Assembly: GCA_022825065.1 (NCBI GenBank)
Contig: JAJDYR010000005.1
Span: 1 to 64,000 of the forward strand
Length of the DNA stretch: 64,000 nucleotides
Direction: 5' to 3'
DNA from: a bacterium
GTDB lineage: Bacteria; UBA8248
Below the pieces are notes generated by a model. That model searched no databases, was not told the DNA's origin, and was given only the letters and a program-made list of their open reading frames with translations. Both the position numbers and the translations under genes were made by a program. Positions 3,475 to 48,515 of this stretch are shown here, one piece after another. How positions within the stretch are numbered: position 1 is the stretch's first letter; each line of letters opens with the position of its first letter.

Positions 3475-3810
3475 ATGTCCAAGGCGATTTTGAAATATTA
3501 CCGGGCCAAGCCGCGCAAGACGCGCCAGATAGCGGACATGATCCGCGGCAAGCGGGTCGCAGACGCCCTCAACCTTTTGCGCCTGTCCACGCGTTCATCG
3601 GCCAAGGTGGTGGAGAAGGTTCTTCTCTCCGCGCTCGCGAACGCCACCGACAAGGGTGAACACGACGACCCCGAAGGCCTCATCGTGAAGAGCATTCGGG
3701 TGGACGTGGGGCCGACGCTCAAGCGGTTCCGGGCGCGGGCGCGCGGGCGCATCGGCCGCGTCAAGCACAGAAGCTGCCACATTCGCGTGGATATCGGCGA
3801 AGCGAGCTAG
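3475..3810 (+). CDS. rplV: Ribosomal protein L22
   Basis: L22 spans the 50S subunit and its hairpin loop lines the exit tunnel. The track start at TTG 3442 adds 11 unlikely residues. The ATG at 3475 follows an AGGGA site and gives 111 residues (MSKAILKYYRAKPRKTRQIADMIRGKRV), the normal size. The C-terminal loop RVDVGPTLKRFRARARGRIGRVKHRSCHI is the family signature. rpsC begins 9 bp downstream. Confidence 0.95.
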   Translation: MSKAILKYYRAKPRKTRQIADMIRGKRVADALNLLRLSTRSSAKVVEKVLLSALANATDKGEHDDPEGLIVKSIRVDVGPTLKRFRARARGRIGRVKHRSCHIRVDIGEAS

Positions 3811-3819
3811 GGAGATACT

Positions 3820-4482
3820 ATGGGTCAAAAAGTTCACCCCATCGGTTTTCGGGTCGGCATCACCAGAGGCTGGAATTCGCACTGGTTCGCCAAGCACAAT
3901 TTCGGCGACCTGCTCCTGGACGATCTGCGCATCCGCAAATACGTGAAGGATCGCCTCTCGCACGCAGGCGTGAGCAACGTGGAAATAGAGCGCGCCAGCG
4001 AGCGTGCGCGCATCAACATCTGGACGGCCCGGCCGGGCATCATCATCGGGAAGCGCGGCGCGGAGGTCGACAGGCTGAAGGCGGATTTGCAGGAGCTCAC
4101 CGGCAACCAGGTGAACGTGAACATCAAGGAAGTGCGCAAGGCCGAGATGGACGCCCAGCTCGTGGCGGAGAACATCGCCATGCAGCTCGAGCGCCGGATC
4201 GCCTTTCGCCGCGCGATGAAAAAAGCGGTGACCTCGGCCCTTCGCTTCGGCGCCAAGGGCGTGAAGATACAGTGCTCCGGCAGGCTCGGGGGCGCCGAGA
4301 TTGCGCGGACCGAATGGTACAGGGAGGGGCGCGTTCCACTGCAGACCCTTCGCGCGGACATCGACTACGGGTTCGCCGAAGGCAAGACGACATACGGAAT
4401 CATCGGGGTCAAGGTCTGGATATTCAGGGGCGAAATGATCCGCCAGGCGAGAAGAACTCCTTCCCAGACGCTGGGTTCGTAA
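3820..4482 (+). CDS. rpsC: Ribosomal protein S3
   Basis: S3 lines the mRNA entry channel of the 30S subunit and contributes to ribosomal helicase activity. The start [24 protein letters not shown] is canonical. A KH domain carries [14 protein letters not shown] around residue 70, and the C-terminal domain has [33 protein letters not shown]. The length of 220 residues is close to the family norm. Confidence 0.98.
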
Positions 4483-34210: not shown

Positions 34211-35473
34211 ATGGCGGAACCTGTACGCGGCGAAATCGTCGCCATCGGCACCGAGATGCTCCTCGGCGACCTCATCGACACCAACAGCGCCTTCATCGCA
34301 GACCAACTCAAGTCGATCGGCGTCAACATGTATTTCAAGACCACCGTCGGCGACAATCTGGACAGGATCGCGGGCGTCATCAAACAGGCGCACGAGCGCT
34401 CCCAGGTCGTGATCACCACGGGCGGCCTCGGCCCCACCGTGGACGACCTGACGCGGGAGGCCTGCGCCAAGGTGATGGGCGTCGAGCTCGAGTTCCGCCA
34501 GGACCTCTACGACTACATCAGCGCCTATTTCAGCCGCCGCGGCTTCCACATGAGCGACAACAACAAGAAGCAGGCCTACATTCCCGCAGGGGCCACGCCC
34601 ATCGAGAACCCGCGCGGAACGGCGCCGTGTTTCATGTGCGAGGACGAGCGGGGGGTCATCATCGTGAGCCCGGGCGTGCCGCACGAGATGCGCTACATCA
34701 TCACCCAGTGCGCGGTGCCCATCCTGCAGGAGAAATTTGATTTGGGAGAGGTTATCCGAACAAAAGTCCTCAAGACCTGCGGCCTCGGCGAATCGCGCGT
34801 GGACGAGATGATATCGGAGTTGTTTCGCGAATCCGTCAACCCGAGCATCGGCGTGCTCGCCCACCCCGGCCAGGTGGACGTGCGGATCACCGCGCGCGCG
34901 AAGGACATCGAGGAGGCGAACAACATGATCGCGGGTCTGGAGGTCAAGGTGCGTGAGATTCTGGGTTCCGCCGTCTACGCCACCGGGAACGCGACGCTGG
35001 AAGAGACGCTGGCGCGCGTGCTGGCCCAGAGCGGCAAGACCATCGCCATCGTCGAGTCGAATACCGGCGGGGCCTTGATCCAGCGGCTGAACGCCTGGCC
35101 CGAGCGCGTGCAGTTCTTAAAGCGCGGCGTCGTCGGCCTGCACGCGGAGGAGTTGGCGCGCATGTTCGGGGTGGATGAGGGAGAAGGCCCGGAGAGTTTC
35201 GCAAAAGCGCTCGCGAGGCGAATCCGCGAAGAATCGGGCGCCGACCTGGGATTAGCCGTCTTCGGCCCCAATCCGCCCGAGAACATCGAGCCCGAAAACT
35301 CGCGCCGCGCGCCCGCGCTGGGCGACACGCACATGGCGCTCGACACGGGAGGCGACGCCTTCACCTTCACGGCGAGCTTCGGGGGCAACGAGCAGTTCGT
35401 GCAGTCGCGCGCGCCCATCTACGCGATGGAGCTCGTGCGCCGCGCCGTGCTGGGTCTCGACCCGTTGGCGTGA
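34211..35473 (+). CDS. cinA: CinA-like protein with degenerate C-terminal domain
   Basis: The N-terminal half (residues 1-175) is a molybdopterin-binding-fold CinA domain: EIVAIGTEMLLGDLIDTNSAFIADQL, VITTGGLGPTVDDLTREAC and SPGVPHEMRYI. In CinA this domain is an ADP-ribose pyrophosphatase. The C-terminal PncC-like amidase domain (residues 260-420) has diverged. The expected ESCTGG is ESNTGG, and TGIAGP/GGT is replaced by VFGPNPPENIEPENSRR. Nicotinamide-nucleotide amidase activity is therefore doubtful. The length of 420 is normal. A broken copy of its 3' end lies at 41215-41574. Confidence 0.92.
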   Translation: MAEPVRGEIVAIGTEMLLGDLIDTNSAFIADQLKSIGVNMYFKTTVGDNLDRIAGVIKQAHERSQVVITTGGLGPTVDDLTREACAKVMGVELEFRQDLYDYISAYFSRRGFHMSDNNKKQAYIPAGATPIENPRGTAPCFMCEDERGVIIVSPGVPHEMRYIITQCAVPILQEKFDLGEVIRTKVLKTCGLGESRVDEMISELFRESVNPSIGVLAHPGQVDVRITARAKDIEEANNMIAGLEVKVREILGSAVYATGNATLEETLARVLAQSGKTIAIVESNTGGALIQRLNAWPERVQFLKRGVVGLHAEELARMFGVDEGEGPESFAKALARRIREESGADLGLAVFGPNPPENIEPENSRRAPALGDTHMALDTGGDAFTFTASFGGNEQFVQSRAPIYAMELVRRAVLGLDPLA

Positions 35474-35812
35474 CCTGAAAACCGGAAATTTCTTCTGAAC
35501 AATTCGATACACGGTCGGTTCTCAAAAGTCTCGAGCCCGACGCCAAAAGCAGTCCTGGACAGTGCTGTCATCGTCCTTCCCGAAAATACCTTGGAAACTG
35601 CGAAAAATTCACTAAAACACCCCCAATATTAGGGGGGCTGAAATGCCCGCGATTCCCTATATTTGATTCATTGTTTTCAGGTCTGAACATGCAGAACAGA
35701 AATGGGTAGGCGCCTCATCACCGATTTGCGTGCAGGAAAAGAGCATCGGCGAAATGGAACGCGATATCGTGTTTGTTCAAGAGTTACTGCCAGATGTTGT
35801 GTATGAGTTGAA
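35474..35812 (+). other. Gene-free spacer after cinA
   Basis: No convincing gene is seen. The first 30 bp after the cinA stop (AATTTCTTCTGAACAATTCGATA) resemble the sequence after the cinA fragment at 41575, so the duplication extended past the stop. A frame around 35730 reads GEMERDIVFVQELLPDVVYELN but has no recognisable family. Confidence 0.5.
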
Positions 35813-41214: not shown

Positions 41215-41574
41215 ATGACGAATCGTTCGGATGCGGGACCCGTCACCCTCGCCGGGGGCGTTCACGCGTTTATCGATGAGGGCGGGGAACCTGGGACTTT
41301 CGCAAAAGCGATCGCGAGGAGAGTTCTCGAGGAACCGGAAGCCGACTCAAGGTGAGCCGTCCACGGCCCGAATCCGCCGGAGAATATCGAGCCGGAAAAT
41401 TCCCGACGCGCTCCCGCGCTTGGCCCCACCCGCATGACGCTCGACACCGGAGACGACGCCTTCACCTTCACGGCGCGCTCAGGCGTCAACGAGCAGTTTG
41501 CGCAGTCGCGCGCGCCTGTCTACGGGATGGAGTTCGTGCGCTGCGCGGTGCCGGGTCCGGACCCGTTGGCGTGA
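41215..41574 (+). pseudogene. Degraded duplicate of the cinA C-terminal end
   Basis: The frame reads FIDEGGEPGTFAKAIARRVLEEPEADSR, a TGA stop at 41353, then AVHGPNPPENIEPENSRR and DAFTFTARSGVNEQFAQSRAPVYGMEFVRCAVPGPDPLA. This aligns without frameshift to the last 105 or so residues of the CinA-like protein at 34211-35473. The first 46 codons form an ORF from ATG 41215. The similarity continues into the 3' flank (AACAATTCGATA). It appears to be a partial gene duplication that has decayed. Confidence 0.85.
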
Positions 41575-41807
41575 TGCTGGAGAGCCTGAATTTCTAAAAC
41601 AATTCGATAAATTTAGATAAATTCACGGGGTTTTTCCGTAAATTTCCGTAAATGATCGAGGGGAAATGCGGGGATTTGCGGGCGTGGGGTGCGCGCAGAT
41701 GCGGGGAGTTGCGCGCGCGAAACCGGCTGATCTTCGAGCGGCCGCGCCTCATGCGCCCTTCCGGGTATCGTCTTGACGCAGATGTCCATCATCCGGCTGC
41801 CTTTCGC
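41575..41807. other. Gene-free spacer with AT-rich island
   Basis: The stretch begins with ACAATTCGATAAATTTAGATAAATTCACGGGG and TTTTTCCGTAAATTTCCGTAAATG, much more AT-rich than its surroundings. AAATGCGGGGATTTGCGGGCG follows. Similar wording occurs at 63460-63610. It separates the cinA fragment from the tail-like operon. No terminator was recognised. Confidence 0.5.
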
Positions 41808-43493
41808 CTACGCCTGCCCGTAGCGGCGGCGGCGCCTGTTGATGTCCTCCAGCTTGCGCGAGAGCTTCTCGAGCGTGCGGTTGTCGCTCAGGTTCCCTTC
41901 GATGTGAATGTGGTAGACGTGGGTGTCGCCCCCGCCTCCGCCCATCTCGTCCCGTATCGCGTCGCGGATGATGGGCCGCACGCCGCGCTGAAAGAAATCA
42001 ATGGATTGCGGGTGGTTCACGTTCATGATGTGCTCGGGCCCCGCCTCGCCCACGAGTCTGAGCGCCGAGCGCTTGACGAAACGCCCCGCCGCGTCGCCTT
42101 CTTCAATGGGCAGCGCCTTCAAATAGACGCTGTAAAAATCCTTGCCGAAATACCGCTTCACGCCCTCCTGGGGCGAGATGCCCGCTTCCCCGGCCGCCCG
42201 CTGGATGACCTGGAAAGCCAGACCGGCTTTTTCGAGCAAGGGAACGTCCACGCTCATCTTCCCCTCGTAGACCGCCTGGGGAAGTGTGAGGTACTGCGCT
42301 TTTTCCGCCACGCCCGTTTCGCGGAATTTTTCGAGCGCAAGATACAGCCCGGCCGCCTGCCCGAGATTCGCTATTCCCCGGGTGAAGGGCGTGGATTTTT
42401 TTCGCTTGAAACCGAGGAAAGAGAGCACCTGCTTGATGGCCCCTCCTTTGTTGAACAGGACGTCGGTAAGCAGAAAAGCGCCCGCCGCAGGCCCCAAGGC
42501 GGCGATGCCCGTGGCGCCCGAGAGCGCGGGGAGGGCGCCCGCAACGTTGATTCCCAGACTTGCTCCCCTTTTCAAGGTTTTAGGACCCCTCAGGAAGTCC
42601 AGCGCGGAGAAGGCGATTTGCAGGGTCGCCGCCGCCTTTGCGGCCGCGATCCGTGCGGCCAGTTCGCTGCTCGCCTTTGCGCCCGCGCCGGTGGCGACCG
42701 CCGTGCCGCCCAGGCGATTCGCCGCCTCGATCTCGGAGATGGATTTGAAAAGGCGCATGATTCCCGCCTCGCCGCCGATTTTCGCCAGCGGCACCACGAG
42801 TTCCGGCCCCGCTTCGCCGATCAGGCCCAGGGTGGGTTTTTTCACCAGACCGCCCTTGGAGAAGCCGAATACCTTGAACAGGCCCTTGCTTAAATCACCC
42901 AGCAAGCCCGTACCCAAACCCTGGAGAGCACTCACCGCCGGTTTGATGAATTGCGTGCTCGCCATCTCTGCGGCGGCGTTACGCACCATGTTGATGGCGT
43001 GGTTTTTCAGATCGCTGAACAGATCCTTGGCGCTGTCGATTTTGCCGCTGAGTACGCCCGAGAAAAATCGGGTGAGCGTCTGCTCGCCGGCCGAGGCGAA
43101 GTCGTTCACCGCTCTTCCGGCGATCTGAAAAGAGGCGGGCAGGTCCGCGGCTTTCCTTTTGACCTCGTCCAGGCCTCTGGCGAGTGGGCCGGAGCCGAGC
43201 CGGGAGCCGGCTCGTTCCGCATTCCGCCACAGGGAGTTCATCCCCTCGGCGGCATCCATGGACGAGGCGCCGACGCCCTGGAGGCGTTCTGAGGACCTCA
43301 CGAAGGTGCGGCTCGATTTTTCGAGCGCGCTCCGCGACCCGCGCGTTTCGAGCTTGAGTTTTTCCGTGGCGATTCTGGCCTGTGCCGCCGCCTTGGTGAA
43401 ACGCTCGAGCGCTTTCAGGCTGTTCCCGGAGTTCAGGTCTATTTTCTTCGTTATCGAGATTTTATGGACTTGCTCCGGCACGGGATCTCTCAC
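41808..43493 (-). CDS. Phage tail tape-measure-like protein
   Basis: The 561-residue protein is the last gene of the tail-like operon. It has a long helical N-terminal half rich in Ala, Arg, Ser and Glu. A hydrophobic Ala/Gly-rich middle (residues 270-350) and two copies of a motif common in tape-measure proteins follow (GLIGEAGPELVVPL near residue 222 and RLVGEAGPEHIMNV near 480). The C-terminus is [38 protein letters not shown] at 43481 is an alternative start. If used as a ruler at about 1.5 Angstrom per residue, the tail would be about 85 nm. Confidence 0.75.
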   Translation of the reverse strand: MRDPVPEQVHKISITKKIDLNSGNSLKALERFTKAAAQARIATEKLKLETRGSRSALEKSSRTFVRSSERLQGVGASSMDAAEGMNSLWRNAERAGSRLGSGPLARGLDEVKRKAADLPASFQIAGRAVNDFASAGEQTLTRFFSGVLSGKIDSAKDLFSDLKNHAINMVRNAAAEMASTQFIKPAVSALQGLGTGLLGDLSKGLFKVFGFSKGGLVKKPTLGLIGEAGPELVVPLAKIGGEAGIMRLFKSISEIEAANRLGGTAVATGAGAKASSELAARIAAAKAAATLQIAFSALDFLRGPKTLKRGASLGINVAGALPALSGATGIAALGPAAGAFLLTDVLFNKGGAIKQVLSFLGFKRKKSTPFTRGIANLGQAAGLYLALEKFRETGVAEKAQYLTLPQAVYEGKMSVDVPLLEKAGLAFQVIQRAAGEAGISPQEGVKRYFGKDFYSVYLKALPIEEGDAAGRFVKRSALRLVGEAGPEHIMNVNHPQSIDFFQRGVRPIIRDAIRDEMGGGGGDTHVYHIHIEGNLSDNRTLEKLSRKLEDINRRRRRYGQA

Positions 43494-43533
43494 TCCTGAG
43501 TATGATGCATGGTGTGGCTTGATGCCGGGCGCG

Positions 43534-43656
43534 CTAATCCGCCCAGGGGTTGATGAAATGCCACAGGTGGTTCGTGATGAGGCGCGGCTCGACCGCCGCG
43601 ACGACGCACAATACGGCGGCGGCCGAGAAAAGCGCCGCGAGAAGATGGGGAATCAT
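43534..43656 (-). CDS. Small membrane protein of the tail-like module
   Basis: This 40-residue ORF is absent from the ORF track. It reads MIPHLLAALFSAAAVLCVVAAVEPRLITNHLWHFINPWAD, with one hydrophobic helix at residues 4-22. Its ATG overlaps the stop of the upstream gene (ATGA), and the tape-measure gene starts 40 bp later. Coupling suggests it is translated. A holin-like or lysis-accessory role is possible but unproven. Confidence 0.6.
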   Translation of the reverse strand: MIPHLLAALFSAAAVLCVVAAVEPRLITNHLWHFINPWAD

Positions 43657-44036
43657 GGTTGACGCTCCTTGCTCAGGCGCTCGTCGAGTCTGGCGAGCGC
43701 GGTTTCTACCTCACGCAGGCGGCGGAGTATTTGCGCAAAGGTTTGCGCGTCCGCGCGCGTTTTTTTCACGGCAATCGCCTTCAGTTCACGGAATTTGAGA
43801 TCGGCAATCGTTTTCGCCTCCCGCAACCGGGTTTCCACCTCCTGGAAGCGGACGCGCGCGCCCGCGTTTTTCTCCAAAAGCCAGGGGTGGCCCCGCTCGG
43901 CCATGTGGGTCGCCAGGCGCGCTTCCACGTTCACGATCTGGTTGTAGAGCGGCGTGTAGGCGGCCACCCCGAGGCCGGCGATGCTCAGGATGGACAGGAA
44001 TATCTGGAGTCCTTTCCCGTTTCCTTCAGACGCCAT
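43653..44036 (-). CDS. Small membrane-anchored coiled-coil protein of the tail-like module
   Basis: The 127-residue protein has an N-terminal helix (GLQIFLSILSIAGLGVAAYTPLYNQIV) followed by a long charged helical region (VEARLATHMAERGH..., then FQEVETRLREAKTIADLKFRELKAIAVKK and RRLREVETALARLDERLSK). Size and layout recall phage spanin or holin-accessory proteins, but no family is recognised. ATG 44036 overlaps the upstream stop (TGATG); the longer track start is in shadow sequence. Confidence 0.65.
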   Translation of the reverse strand: MASEGNGKGLQIFLSILSIAGLGVAAYTPLYNQIVNVEARLATHMAERGHPWLLEKNAGARVRFQEVETRLREAKTIADLKFRELKAIAVKKTRADAQTFAQILRRLREVETALARLDERLSKERQP

Positions 44037-44731
44037 CAGCGCACCGCATCGAACGAGGAGGCGGCTTCTGCGAGTTTCGCGTCCAGGGCGGCCACGCTGG
44101 TCGTGACGTCGGCATCCCGGGTGTCGCGCACGCATTCGTCGTAAATTTTAAGGAGAGAGGCGATCTTACCGAGCAGGGCTGTTCTTCGGCTCGCCCACTC
44201 GTCCACCACGCTTTGACCCGTCGCGTAGCGCGCCGGATAGGCGTCTTTTCTGTTTTTGATGAGCGCGAACGCCGGCTTCGCGAGTTTCTCCTCGTCTGAA
44301 TCCTGCGCCCAGGCGTCGATGAGCCTCGCTTTTTCCTCGTATTCGGCCAGCTTGCCGCCCAGAGCGCTCACCGGCACGCCCACGATGCGCGCCTTGGCGG
44401 CGTTCAGCAACAGATTGAGTTTCTCCTTCGCCTCGTCGCGGTGGATTTGCGCCACTCCATCGGGCGCGTGCGCGGCATGAGCGGCGAGAATGGCCTCGCG
44501 CTGCGCCCGGGTGCTTGAACCGGCCACGTTGATGACCCACGTGTCCCGGCCGGGGCCATGGATTTCAGGACGGGCGGATTCCGTCTCGCCGGGCCCGGGC
44601 CGCCAGTCGGCGTCAGGCGTCATGGTCGTTTTCAGCCGGTGCGCGCTGCCCAGGTAGAGATGCGCGAGGCCGGCAGCTTCCAGTTCATCGCGAAAATGCG
44701 GCCCGACGGCTTTGGTCACTTCGATTTCCAT
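44036..44731 (-). CDS. Uncharacterised protein of the tail-like module
   Basis: The 231-residue protein is not recognised. Residues 1-85 are mixed alpha/beta and contain HLYLGSAHRLKTTMTPDADWRPGPGE. The rest is mostly helical (KEKLNLLLNAAKARIVG, LAEYEEKARLIDAWAQDSDEEKLAKPAFALIKNRKDAYPARYATGQSVVDEWASRR). Its place after a beta-rich protein and before small membrane proteins would suit a tail-fibre assembly or attachment role, which is inference. It starts 9 bp after the previous stop. Confidence 0.6.
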   Translation of the reverse strand: MEIEVTKAVGPHFRDELEAAGLAHLYLGSAHRLKTTMTPDADWRPGPGETESARPEIHGPGRDTWVINVAGSSTRAQREAILAAHAAHAPDGVAQIHRDEAKEKLNLLLNAAKARIVGVPVSALGGKLAEYEEKARLIDAWAQDSDEEKLAKPAFALIKNRKDAYPARYATGQSVVDEWASRRTALLGKIASLLKIYDECVRDTRDADVTTSVAALDAKLAEAASSFDAVR

Positions 44732-44740
44732 GTTTGTCTC

Positions 44741-45682
44741 CTAAATCAGAACGACGCTTTGGAAGAGATAGTCGCCGATGTTCAGGATGGTTGAACCCGC
44801 CACGCGAAAGACGAACGTGGAGTGAACCTCGGCGAGCGCGCCCGTGTATATTCGCGTGCTCGCAATCGCGAAGTTGTCTTTCTCGCTGTTCGACAAGCGG
44901 ATGATTTCGACTTCCGGATAGGCCTGCCCCGTTCCGCCAAACAGTTCGAGATTCATATCCAGGCCCGCCAGACCCGCGATGCTCGTTGAATTCACCCATC
45001 CCTGTCCGCCGGCTTCCTGGCGAATGACGTCGTGGCCCGGCCACATCAGGATTTCGTGCGTCGCGACGGAGGTCCAGTCGGTGGACAGGGTGGTGGCGAG
45101 CGTCCCTTTGGATTGAGCGGCGTATTCCGCCTTGTTCCAGAAGCTTCTGACATACACGTCGTTCGCGAGAACGAACTGGGACGAGCCGTCCGTTCTCGCG
45201 ACCCCGGCGAGGGTGCGGCTCTTGTCGTCCGTTTTGTGCGCCAGCCCCGTGGCGGCGTCGAACGCCCAGCTTCCCGCCCTGTCGAATTCGAGTTTGAGCA
45301 AGCCCCCGTCGTCGTAGACGAAGACGGCATAGGAATTGTCCGCGGTGAGGCCTGCGTTCGTTAGCGTGATTCCCTCCCAGGGCAAATCCTCGTAATAGAC
45401 GTCCTCCGACGCATCATCGATGAAGGGCACGTGGCAACCCGCCACGGGATTGGCGACGGCGGGATAGTAGGCGGAGTTGAGTGCCGGCTTGAACGCCAGG
45501 GTGGTGGTGTTCACGTAATCAAGCCTGCCCGCGCATTCGATGGGTTGTCTGTTGGCCCTGATTTTTCCGTCCGGGAACAGGGCGGCGAGGGCCAGGCGGT
45601 CGATGACGCGGGCTTTCGTGGGGTGGTGGCCGCCGATGGCTTCTTCGGTATAGCGGGCGGACAGGTCAGCGCCGATGGGCAT
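44741..45682 (-). CDS. Beta-rich tail-fibre-like protein of the tail-like module
   Basis: The 313-residue protein has no recognised family. It is rich in short beta strands with Gly, Thr, Asn and aromatic residues (LTADNSYAVFVYDDGGLLKLEFDRAGSWAFDAATGLAHKTDDKSR, then VEIIRLSNSEKDNFAIASTRIYTGALAEVHSTFVFRVAGSTILNIGDYLFQS), as in tail fibres or receptor-binding proteins. ATG 45682 behind AAGGAG is clear; the track start is too long. Confidence 0.6.
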   Translation of the reverse strand: MPIGADLSARYTEEAIGGHHPTKARVIDRLALAALFPDGKIRANRQPIECAGRLDYVNTTTLAFKPALNSAYYPAVANPVAGCHVPFIDDASEDVYYEDLPWEGITLTNAGLTADNSYAVFVYDDGGLLKLEFDRAGSWAFDAATGLAHKTDDKSRTLAGVARTDGSSQFVLANDVYVRSFWNKAEYAAQSKGTLATTLSTDWTSVATHEILMWPGHDVIRQEAGGQGWVNSTSIAGLAGLDMNLELFGGTGQAYPEVEIIRLSNSEKDNFAIASTRIYTGALAEVHSTFVFRVAGSTILNIGDYLFQSVVLI

Positions 45683-45693
45683 GGTTTTCTCCT

Positions 45694-46905
45694 TTATGCG
45701 TAAGTGGCGACGTCGCGCTCGGCGCCCAGGAGCCAATCGCCTTCAAGTATTTTGGCGCCATCCAGAAGAGGGGAGGATGTCAGGAAAAAGCCGGTATCCC
45801 GGATTTTGAGTTCCATGCCCTGCTCTCCCAGGTCGTAATTCACCTCGATAACCTCCCCGATTTGATTCACGAGGGGTTCGAGTTTCTTCGAGCGCATCCA
45901 GGGCACGCTGAACGCCACGTAATCGTCCGGTTCGACTTCGAGCGCTCTCAGGGAGCCATCCTCGATAGTGAGTATGCGGGTGGGTTCGTGATAGCGCCCC
46001 ACGATGCGCGATTGAACAGTGGCGGCCACGCTCTCGCGCCGGACCCATTCGAGCCTGAGCGGGCTTTCAGGAGGTCTCCTGACGCCGTAGAGTCTTTGGG
46101 AGGACCTGTTCTGGGTAGTGCCTCCATCGTCGTGTTTGATGTAACGCGCGTCTGGATAATTCCTCGCATAGAGCGCCGGAACCTGGTTGATTACGGTGTC
46201 GCGCGCTATCTCCGCTTCGATGTGCGATTGGCCGAAGCGGGGCAATACCTTTTGTGGAGAGTTCATGAAGGATTCTCCTCCGGCGATGTGAATTCTCAGG
46301 CGACCGAACGGGTCGATTTCGTATCGTCCGAGAAAATCGCCCAAAAGCGCGGTGAGAACGTCGGCGGGCGCATGGTCGTCCATGATGATTCCACCCGCCC
46401 GGTAGCCGAGCGCCTTTGCGCTGGTTGCCGCGCGCGCGAGGGCCTGCATGTCGACATCCTGCTCACTGAATCCCCAGACGCTCGCCATGAGGTCATGAAC
46501 GATCTCGGCGGGGTTTTCGATGAGCCCGCCCGCTGCGGTTTTCCTGCCCTTGCATACGGCCGTCACTCGCCCTTTTGGCGGGGTGGTGAAAGCGGCTGTG
46601 GCGATGACGCCACGGCCCTGATAGTTCTGGGCGACCTCCAGCGTGTAATTATCCGCCTCGATGCGGCCATCGTCGTCGAACAGTACGACGCCGCCCCATA
46701 TCTCGTGCCCGGCCACGCAGTAGACGCCGTCACCTGCGGTGTCGATTTTAGGCGGCGCGTAAACGCCTGCTTTCTCGCGCGAAGGAACCGTCAAATCCCC
46801 GTAGATGATGGGGAGGCTCTGGTCTTCGAATTCAGGGGCGGCGTACCTCGAAGCGCGGCCTATCTGAAACGAATCCGAGAGCCTGTCCGTCGTCGGGTCG
46901 GGCAT
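45694..46905 (-). CDS. Phage tail hub-like protein
   Basis: The 403-residue protein probably corresponds to a tail or baseplate hub component. It opens with a beta-rich region (LPIIYGDLTVP, VYCVAGHEIWGGVVLFDDDGRIE). A central ENPAEIVHDLMASVWGF and ADVLTALLGDFLGRYEIDPFGRLRIHIAGG resemble hub domains, and it ends with an OB-like stretch (LEVEPDDYVAFSVPWMRSKKLEPLVNQIGEVIEVNYDLGEQGMELKIRDTG). The assignment rests on pattern and context. It begins one base after the upstream stop. Confidence 0.6.
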   Translation of the reverse strand: MPDPTTDRLSDSFQIGRASRYAAPEFEDQSLPIIYGDLTVPSREKAGVYAPPKIDTAGDGVYCVAGHEIWGGVVLFDDDGRIEADNYTLEVAQNYQGRGVIATAAFTTPPKGRVTAVCKGRKTAAGGLIENPAEIVHDLMASVWGFSEQDVDMQALARAATSAKALGYRAGGIIMDDHAPADVLTALLGDFLGRYEIDPFGRLRIHIAGGESFMNSPQKVLPRFGQSHIEAEIARDTVINQVPALYARNYPDARYIKHDDGGTTQNRSSQRLYGVRRPPESPLRLEWVRRESVAATVQSRIVGRYHEPTRILTIEDGSLRALEVEPDDYVAFSVPWMRSKKLEPLVNQIGEVIEVNYDLGEQGMELKIRDTGFFLTSSPLLDGAKILEGDWLLGAERDVATYA

Positions 46906-47439
46906 CTAGTTTCCCTCGCATTCAATCGTGACCGATTCGATGCGCTCGGTGATCCGGCGGATGGTGAAACTCGCGATCGAGAGAACGTCGGATATGTTTT
47001 GTCCCGAAAACCCGACGCGCACGTCGACTCGCCCGCCCACGAACGGCTCCGTCGCGAGCATACGGCTCATACGCGGGTGACCGTCCATATCGGGAGCGTT
47101 GTTGATGGCTATCGTAAGGCCCGAGAGTTCTTTTTCCCTGAATGCCTCGAGAATGGAGGGGCCCTGGAACGCGCCGAGAGAGAAGCGGCCGCCGTCCTCT
47201 ATCCAGTCATGGACGCCGAGGAGCACTTCCGCACCCTCTCCCAGCAGGAGCGAGCCGTCGAGAATCCGCGAGCCGTCGAGGAAATGGATTCTTCCGCCTT
47301 GCCCGATCAGGGAGTCGGGCGCCTGTTTGCCGCAGAACACGCGTTTTCCACCGGCGGTGGACAGGTGGTAGAGGACGAGCGCGGTTTTCCCTTCGTGTCC
47401 GGCGATATCCTTGACCGCCCGGTCCGTAGCGCGCTTCAT
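46906..47439 (-). CDS. Minor tail-like protein of the tail-like module
   Basis: The 177-residue protein is not recognised by family. It shows GRIHFLDGSRILDGSLLLGEGAEVLLGVHDWIEDGGRFSLGAFQG, with alternating strands and turns. Its size and position between two larger beta-rich proteins fit a minor tail component. Its ATG overlaps the upstream stop (ATGA). Confidence 0.55.
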   Translation of the reverse strand: MKRATDRAVKDIAGHEGKTALVLYHLSTAGGKRVFCGKQAPDSLIGQGGRIHFLDGSRILDGSLLLGEGAEVLLGVHDWIEDGGRFSLGAFQGPSILEAFREKELSGLTIAINNAPDMDGHPRMSRMLATEPFVGGRVDVRVGFSGQNISDVLSIASFTIRRITERIESVTIECEGN

Positions 47440-48515
47440 GCGAGTCTTTCCTTAAGCACGAGTTCGAAGGAGAAATCATCCGGCCCCGTCTGGCGAGGCA
47501 GGAAACCGCCCGTGAAATGGGCGAGTATTATCGAGGCGGGGTCATCCACATCCATATGAACGAAGAGCGGATTGGCCCGCAGTGTTTCGACGTTCTTCAC
47601 GGCGCGGTACATGGTGAGAAATTCCCCGCGCTGTTCATCCGATATGCGTTCATAGGGAAGGGTGACCGTGCGGCCTCGGTTCAGGAGCACCGGATGTTCC
47701 GCCATGTTTTCCGTGCGTCCCGCCTCCTCGAAGGATTCTTCTCCCACCACGTTTCCGAACCAGAAGTGATCGGCGGGCTCGAAATAACCGCCCAGATAAA
47801 TTTCCGAGACTTCCAGATACGCATCCTGGTCGGCGGCGGCGCCCTCCATCACAAGACGCCAGTGGCGATATGAACGCGGCACTGTGGCGAGATAGTGGAT
47901 GAGCGTGCCATTGCGCCAGGCGAGCCTTTCATCGAGGGCGGGCGCGCGCCAGTCTGCAGACCTGTTCGCCTGAATCCGGAGGCTTGTTCCGGGTGAAAAA
48001 TTGTGGAGGTGGGCGATGAACACGTCGGGAGATTTCTCCGCGCCGAAATCGAGGGCGAGTGACCACGGGTCTTCGGGCGGCGAGGCGCTTCTCATCTTCG
48101 TGGCGGGGTCGAGATCATACAGTCTTTTCGGCGAGTAAAAGCGATTCGCCGTCGCCTGCCAATGATCGCCCAGGGCGAAAGCGGGTGAATCCGCGCCACC
48201 TGCGAAGCGGACCTTCACGCCTGAATCCAGGGCGATATCCGTCAGGGAGGTGGGGATGTTCGAGGCTTCCCAGCCGCCTGCGGGAGTCGACGTCTTGCGC
48301 CACTTGAAGCGAGCGCTTCCGACATCACCCGGGGCGTCAATTTCCACGGAGTAGACTTCCGGGTCATCTCCTGCATAGGCGCCCGAGAAGATCATCGAGC
48401 CGCCCGCGCTGGTGACCCGGGGAACGCCCGCGCCGACGAATCCCTTCTCCACGGAAGTGGCGGCGATGGCCGTCTCCTCATCGATGAGATTTTGATACAT
48501 GAAACGATGTCCCAT
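47436..48515 (-). CDS. Beta-rich protein opening the tail-like module
   Basis: The 359-residue protein starts at ATG 48515 behind a strong AGGAGAG site; the track start 44 codons upstream is not supported. It is mostly beta structure with GADSPAFALGDHWQATANRFYSP, DVFIAHLHNFSPGTSLRIQANRSADWRAP and a C-terminal FSFELVLKERLA. The middle looks like a discoidin or carbohydrate-binding-type sandwich (FGAEKSPDVFIAHLHNFSPGT...RHWRLVMEGAAADQDAYLEVSEIYLGGYF), which would fit surface binding. It is the first gene of the operon. Confidence 0.6.
   Translation of the reverse strand: MGHRFMYQNLIDEETAIAATSVEKGFVGAGVPRVTSAGGSMIFSGAYAGDDPEVYSVEIDAPGDVGSARFKWRKTSTPAGGWEASNIPTSLTDIALDSGVKVRFAGGADSPAFALGDHWQATANRFYSPKRLYDLDPATKMRSASPPEDPWSLALDFGAEKSPDVFIAHLHNFSPGTSLRIQANRSADWRAPALDERLAWRNGTLIHYLATVPRSYRHWRLVMEGAAADQDAYLEVSEIYLGGYFEPADHFWFGNVVGEESFEEAGRTENMAEHPVLLNRGRTVTLPYERISDEQRGEFLTMYRAVKNVETLRANPLFVHMDVDDPASIILAHFTGGFLPRQTGPDDFSFELVLKERLA

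Follow-up and report, generated by a model that had tools for sequence, protein, structure and literature searches.

A candidate gene transfer agent with unlinked head and tail operons in the bacterial lineage UBA8248

What might eight phage-tail-like genes, with no head or packaging gene beside them, be doing in a bacterial chromosome? The question is raised by a 64,000-nucleotide stretch of DNA (the window hereafter; positions 1 to 64,000 of JAJDYR010000005.1, our contig C13) from a draft genome of the lineage UBA8248 (G000; GCA_022825065.1, 3.83 Mb, 93.8% complete). An earlier note, made from the letters of the window, had described there an isolated operon of tightly packed minus-strand genes (g1-g8, hereafter the tail-tip block), the last coding for a 561-residue tape-measure-like protein with two GEAGPE motifs. 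We found the same eight open reading frames (ORFs), all open, at 48515-41808 of the minus strand, with 4-bp overlaps at g1/g2 and g6/g7 and otherwise gaps of 0-40 bp. Five sequenced relatives within the genus have the entire block in the same order, a sixth has g1-g4 on a short contig, and the ratio of nonsynonymous to synonymous substitution (dN/dS) is well below 1, which indicates that it is more than a chance arrangement of ORFs. We consider it probable (roughly 0.72) that this operon codes for the distal tail parts and tape measure of a domesticated, vertically inherited siphovirus-type particle whose function is that of a gene transfer agent (GTA).

Head and packaging genes on a second contig

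The comparison set consisted of 18 genomes of the family, seven of them in the genus of the window (genus g1), and 368 genomes outside the family. Those relatives that bear a name are metagenome bins listed in GenBank as 'Nitrospinota/Nitrospinae', isolate UBA8248 among them; several appear from their names to be sponge-derived. Since the genome set shows no kin elsewhere in the domain, we treat the family as a phylum-level lineage of its own.

Using the capsid-to-fibre genes of two relatives, G012 and G013, as queries against the genome of the window and its genus, we recovered capsid and tube genes in each of the seven genomes of the genus; in G000 they lie on a separate contig (C4, 16.3-21.7 kb). 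Contig C4 additionally codes for the two parts of a terminase, a portal and an HK97-gp10-like protein (Table 1), while no head-gene homologue is found within the window. Hence, the earlier observation that head and packaging genes are missing holds for the window and fails for the genome. Nor is the block isolated, its missing parts lying on contig C4 with both sets present in 7/7 genomes of the genus; the search of the rest of the genome that had been proposed thus turned up tube, capsid and terminase.

The connectors, tube, tail terminator and tail-assembly genes reside with the head block and not with the tail-tip block. This bears on the possibility that the latter alone makes a tail-only device, such as a tailocin or a surface apparatus, with the head block a neutral leftover. 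The physical separation of the tail block in genus g1 and the resemblance of g4 to a receptor-binding fibre would fit such a device. However, it would have to draw its tube, terminator and assembly proteins from the head block; in no genome examined is the tail block intact where the head genes are missing; and the constraint on the capsid, portal and terminase ATPase is equal or stronger. Moreover, a tailocin is marked by the lack of head and packaging genes, whereas conserved capsid, portal and terminase genes co-occur in this genome. We therefore regard a tail-only device as quite improbable, and the stand-alone tail or surface apparatus entertained in the earlier note is not supported either. 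Its other suggestion, a transfer-agent fragment with the remaining parts elsewhere, fares well: terminase, portal, capsid, connectors and tube are on the other contig and co-occur with the block in every genome of the genus.

Two profile results were set aside. The Terminase_6N family (PF03237) has no match in the bacterial family, where the terminase is GpA-like instead. A PF04860 portal match on contig C6 (PF05133 was also tried) lies outside the system, in a separate prophage remnant (C6, 396472-405761; loci L041/L042) which carries a tyrosine-integrase-like gene besides a portal and head-tail genes and has no relation to the genes discussed here.

Ancestral gene order and a fixed chromosomal site

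In G012 and G013 the genes from capsid through fibre are contiguous on one contig, in the order protease-capsid, decoration-like and connector proteins, terminator, tube, (assembly), tape measure, (g1), g2, g3, fibre. The phage-type order tape measure-g1-g2-g3-g4 is found in genera g2 and g6, and genus g3 has the same order without a detected gene g1. The terminal position of the tape-measure gene, to which the earlier note had drawn attention, is real; given that this gene precedes the distal tail genes in three other genera, it is a derived relocation within genus g1.

The chromosomal site itself begins with terA-terN-portal, followed by opposite-strand cellular genes including cdaA, then by the genes from capsid to tail, and after these by genes for an RsbU-like phosphatase, tldD, pmbA and cofE-cofC-cofD. 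The capsid gene adjoins the cellular cdaA in genera g1, g2, g3, g5 and g6, i.e. in all five that keep the capsid. In genus g1 the tail-assembly genes are directly followed by cofE because the tail-tip block has moved away from the cdaA site. In the five genomes with a contig long enough to show it, the block adjoins an M23 peptidase gene. In the window it is flanked by genes for this peptidase, a hexapeptide-repeat protein and a luciferase-like monooxygenase, all confirmed by Pfam. Counted from contig positions, the loci cover no less than ~71 kb in G000 and ~72 kb in G002; the former figure adds C13 1-48.5 kb to C4 1-22.8 kb and assumes that these ends are joined.

Selection, inheritance and distribution

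Pairwise comparisons among the genus genomes by the Nei-Gojobori method, covering 19 genes of the system and their chromosomal neighbours, gave mean dN/dS values from 0.10 (portal) to 0.43 (gp10-like) over the 19 genes. The tail-tip genes lie at 0.15-0.25 and the chromosomal neighbours at 0.07-0.28, with 0.105 for the portal, 0.138 for the capsid and 0.225 for terA. The two closest genomes differ by synonymous distances of 0.11-0.5, which are unsaturated. Every gene of the system is thus under purifying selection in the genus. The comparison of relatives that the earlier note had recommended therefore finds the block conserved across the genus, neither absent from close relatives nor decaying in them; in one relative, G005, the frame of g1 is shortened.

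A prophage that is recent or in decay, and that rearrangement or the assembly has broken up, would account for the phage derivation of the proteins and for the state of G010, G016 and G017, which hold broken remnants only, at the same site; the prophage remnant on contig C6 is likewise in keeping with it. Against this, the two sites are fixed across the seven genomes, the capsid sits beside cdaA in five genera, neither integrase nor replication genes were seen within the blocks, and the frames are intact with dN/dS near that of chromosomal genes. An active temperate phage or prophage would be contiguous and mobile, with genes for integration and replication, whereas the present system is split and holds a fixed site. 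The fixed context and purifying selection strongly disfavour a prophage, which we judge very improbable. Together with the remnants at the same site, they instead bear out the domestication that the earlier note had considered.

The capsid, tube, portal and g3 are present in 7/7 genomes of the genus (g3 at 80-95% identity). Outside the family, a portal was detected in 2/368 genomes, both distant at 27-29% identity, which suggests that close portal homologues are confined to the family.

Proteins of the tail-tip block

The tape-measure assignment of g8, with its GEAGPE motifs at residues 226 and 482, is upheld by matches to phrog_1535 (E 7e-8) and to NCBIfam RcGTA_tape (E 1e-9, yet 38 bits against a cut-off of 220); in other genera its homologues lie upstream of g1. 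Together with the colinear phage contigs described below, these matches supply the tail homology whose absence would have spoken against a tail operon.

Homologues of g1 are 44-58% identical in other genera of the family and, at 24-36%, immediately follow the tape measure in phage contigs from IMG/VR. A low-confidence structure model (mean predicted local distance difference test score, pLDDT, of 57) has a weak best match in the PDB to CBM32 (E 3e-3), and g1 may contain, in its middle part, a CBM32/discoidin-like domain that binds carbohydrate. In every relative and in the phage contigs, g2 is found between g1 and g3; it is 50-62% identical in other genera. The hub-like g3 is 50-57% identical in other genera and 26-34% in the IMG/VR phage contigs, where the gene order is the same; its structure model is unusable (pLDDT 46.5). 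We also noted, by eye, extra LamG/lectin-like sequence in g3 of G012 (L028 8782-10713) and g1 of G013 (L027 10209-11963), as if tip proteins were gaining carbohydrate-binding parts.

The pattern of g4 is that of a likely receptor binder: residues 1-50 are 42-68% identical in other genera while later blocks are mostly at 8-50%, and only the first ~40 residues are common to the phage contigs (43-65%). Its neighbour g5 has a short N-terminal motif, PHF..ELEAAGL, in common with the same-place gene in genus g6 and is a possible fibre accessory or chaperone protein. The genus-specific g6 (mean dN/dS 0.15) is a candidate lysis or membrane accessory protein, and g7, conserved at 90-98% within the genus, a candidate small lysis/membrane protein. 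At L027 7047-10147 a small membrane-protein gene and a tape-measure gene are tandemly duplicated, the first tape-measure copy being truncated to 265 aa.

Table 1. Features of the system in the window (C13) and on contig C4 of genome G000
Feature	Contig	Position	Strand	Description and evidence
Upstream element CGCATTTGCCCGCATTTGCG	C13	48643..48662	-	followed by a TATATTC-like -10 box; 7-genome alignment
g1, 359 aa	C13	47436..48515	-	distal-tail-like; directly after tape measure in ancestral order
g2, 177 aa	C13	46906..47439	-	tail-tip protein; synteny
g3, 403 aa	C13	45694..46905	-	hub-like tail-tip protein
g4, 313 aa	C13	44741..45682	-	fibre-like protein
g5, 231 aa	C13	44036..44731	-	follows fibre gene g4
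g6, 126 aa	C13	43653..44033	-	N-terminal membrane segment and coiled coil
g7, 40 aa	C13	43534..43656	-	one membrane segment; 4-bp overlap with g6
g8, 561 aa	C13	41808..43493	-	tail tape measure protein; GTG start
Degenerate element copy	C13	41694..41713	-	3 mismatches; ~95 bp after g8
Terminase ATPase (terA)	C4	2618-3676		GpA_ATPase 1.8e-17; phrog_675 2.4e-50
Terminase nuclease (terN), separate gene	C4 (L082)	3673-4326		phrog_675 C-terminal part, 2.8e-10
Portal	C4	4329-5678		phrog_10963 5.6e-47
Protease-capsid fusion	C4			Phage_capsid_4 2.3e-44; NCBIfam protease/major capsid protein fusion 6e-55
Tail tube	C4			Phage_tube_2 8e-11
HK97-gp10-like protein	C4			profile match

Beyond the block, a 335-bp direct repeat (window 35174-35509 and 41275-41609, 79.5% identical) brackets the luciferase-like gene region just after g8. 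G001 has one copy only beside the block, which suggests an insertion or duplication. A family of ~120-150 bp palindromic repeats (window ~23.1, 26.0, 28.7, 31.2, 32.9, 34.0 and 39.5 kb), whose members match one another in both orientations and recur on other contigs, resembles miniature inverted-repeat transposable elements (MITE-like) or repetitive extragenic palindromes (REP-like).

An element upstream of the three operons

A conserved element, CGCATTT(G/C)CCCGCATTTGCG, precedes the start of terA, capsid and g1 by 80-142 bp in the seven genomes. Its copies on contig C4, perfect or nearly so, are 80 bp (terA) and 142 bp (capsid gene) upstream of these genes. The chance expectation in the window is 0.06 matches, and the three operons account for the only exact matches (3/3) in the ~221 kb of G000 examined. 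Among 30 exact-match loci fetched from the genus, 11 lie at these operons (10 upstream of an operon, one after g8); in G002, a perfect copy stands after g8. Conceivably, the copies flanking the tail block could also have helped in its relocation.

A whole-genome count ruled out that the element is specific to the three operons. As an intergenic element, CGCATTTSCCCGCATTTGCG occurs genus-wide at ~100 sites per genome, often followed by a -10-like box, and perhaps belongs to a large regulon or is a dispersed repeat. In view of these copies, we keep it as supporting evidence only.

A proposed particle and the points that weigh against it

An ordinary-size particle would probably be unable to carry its own genes, because the unlinked loci span at least ~71 kb. 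Their wide spread suggests that host DNA would be packaged instead and that the particle would act as a GTA. This, the probable vertical inheritance, the constraint and the presence of the DNA-uptake channel ComEC in the genus make a GTA the best explanation; ComEC, found in all seven genus genomes, is only compatible with DNA delivery. We propose that the three operons at two chromosomal sites would be switched on together. Terminase, portal and protease-capsid would build and fill the head, while connectors, terminator, tube and tape measure would build the tail. The products of g1-g3 would form its tip, and those of g4 and g5 a host-binding fibre. Filled with host DNA, the particle would transfer genes between related cells that keep the ComEC channel.

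Several points weigh against this proposal. Particle formation, host-DNA packaging, release, delivery and co-regulation are inferred from the genes. Profile searches, as the earlier note had advised, returned a tail match for g8 and nothing usable for g1-g7 among annotated families (Pfam, NCBIfam, PHROGs), and the tail identity of g1-g7 therefore depends on synteny. No small terminase was found in the 1 kb before terA, and no clear lysis gene was found. The portal has no match in G007, and in three of the 18 family genomes (G008, G009, G014) the searches with g3, capsid, tube and portal all came back empty. Trees built within the genus from head, tail and host genes conflict in part and are too poorly resolved to demonstrate codiversification. 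Head and host trees do share the grouping G010/G012/G016/G017. The upstream element is not exclusive, with 96-135 copies per genome at <=3 mismatches (control 0).

The terminase calls for particular consideration. It consists of two genes in genera g1 and g6 and of one in 13 related phage contigs, and in an alignment that included three family genomes from two genera the third acidic nuclease residue, an Asp in the 13 phage relatives (HADLY), is not conserved in these three, which read FACAY. Given both changes, DNA cutting may be altered or lost, a further count against a GTA. They would suit a domesticated particle, its head DNA-filled or empty, with a use other than general transfer, such as killing relatives or delivering a fixed cargo. 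However, the Walker motifs of the packaging ATPase (KGAQVG-T and RDEVDDLP) and the portal are strongly conserved, and we noticed no gene for a toxin in the cluster; we regard such a use as unlikely.

If the GTA reading is correct, a GTA was domesticated independently in an uncultured, partly sponge-associated lineage and would offer a route of gene exchange within dense symbiont communities. As profile libraries recognise none of g1-g7, a GTA of this kind can be missed when one locus is read.

Comparison with known phages and gene transfer agents

GTAs are defined by tailed-phage-derived proteins and particles that mostly hold random host DNA; by full endogenization, often over several loci, such that their own genes cannot all be packaged; and by mostly vertical inheritance with co-diversification with the host and delivery of DNA to other cells (PMC9662315). 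Two of the six features in this definition were found here: terminase, portal, capsid, tube and tape measure match phage families, and the genes are fully endogenized as three operons at two sites, with cellular genes between portal and capsid. The system is therefore a GTA candidate rather than a proven GTA. Only a few lineages have yielded the GTAs known so far, and reviews see in the shortage of further examples what hinders an estimate of how common they are (PMC11841831). In a literature search with subscription journals and preprints mostly outside its scope, we found no GTA report for Nitrospinota and no UBA8248 paper with GTA in the title or abstract. That the system is an independently domesticated GTA lineage, in an uncultured phylum-level lineage, derived from a protease-capsid phage and marked by a two-gene terminase, unlinked operons and a promoter element tied to a ~100-site regulon, seems to us somewhat better than an even bet.

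Among known phages, the portal and most of the capsid match only Microcystis phage Mae-JY22 (PP438414), at 39% over 99% and 32% over 88% of their length, respectively, with a capsid-connector-tail order. In contrast, Mae-JY22 is a 41-kb free phage; it carries Gam-like and DUF3486 genes, its terminase is unmatched, and no homologue of g1-g8 was detected in it. Genes g1, g3 and g8 have no match in 50,697 phage records. Portal scans of viral contigs gave no match, and the one match of a g3-only scan, doubtful and confined to part of a larger tail protein, was set aside. IMGVR_UViG_3300003690_000097 (L120) and 12 related IMG/VR loci, probably ordinary phages, carry a large tape-measure-sized gene followed by g1-g2-g3 and usually the start of g4; L120 additionally has the capsid end, decoration, connectors and terminator. 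Although g3 identity is just 26-34%, the g1-g2-g3 genes after a tape-measure-sized gene identify the ancestor as a siphophage and the order in the window as derived. Overall, identity to the nearest phages is only 26-39%.

The Rhodobacter capsulatus type (RcGTA, Rhodogtaviriformidae) likewise has endogenized siphovirus-type structural genes at several loci and a weakly similar tape measure, and is inherited vertically, as is probable here. It differs in its phylum, and the protease-capsid fusion, GpA-type two-gene terminase and tip genes found here are not its own. RcGTA models have no match among the head proteins, and with the tape measure as the sole, below-cut-off match, the system is not of the RcGTA type. 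VSH-1/BhGTA of Brachyspira, from a different phylum and likened here by genome layout and not by sequence, shares the divided genome in which the terminase lies apart from the structural genes (PMC9662315, PMC11841831).

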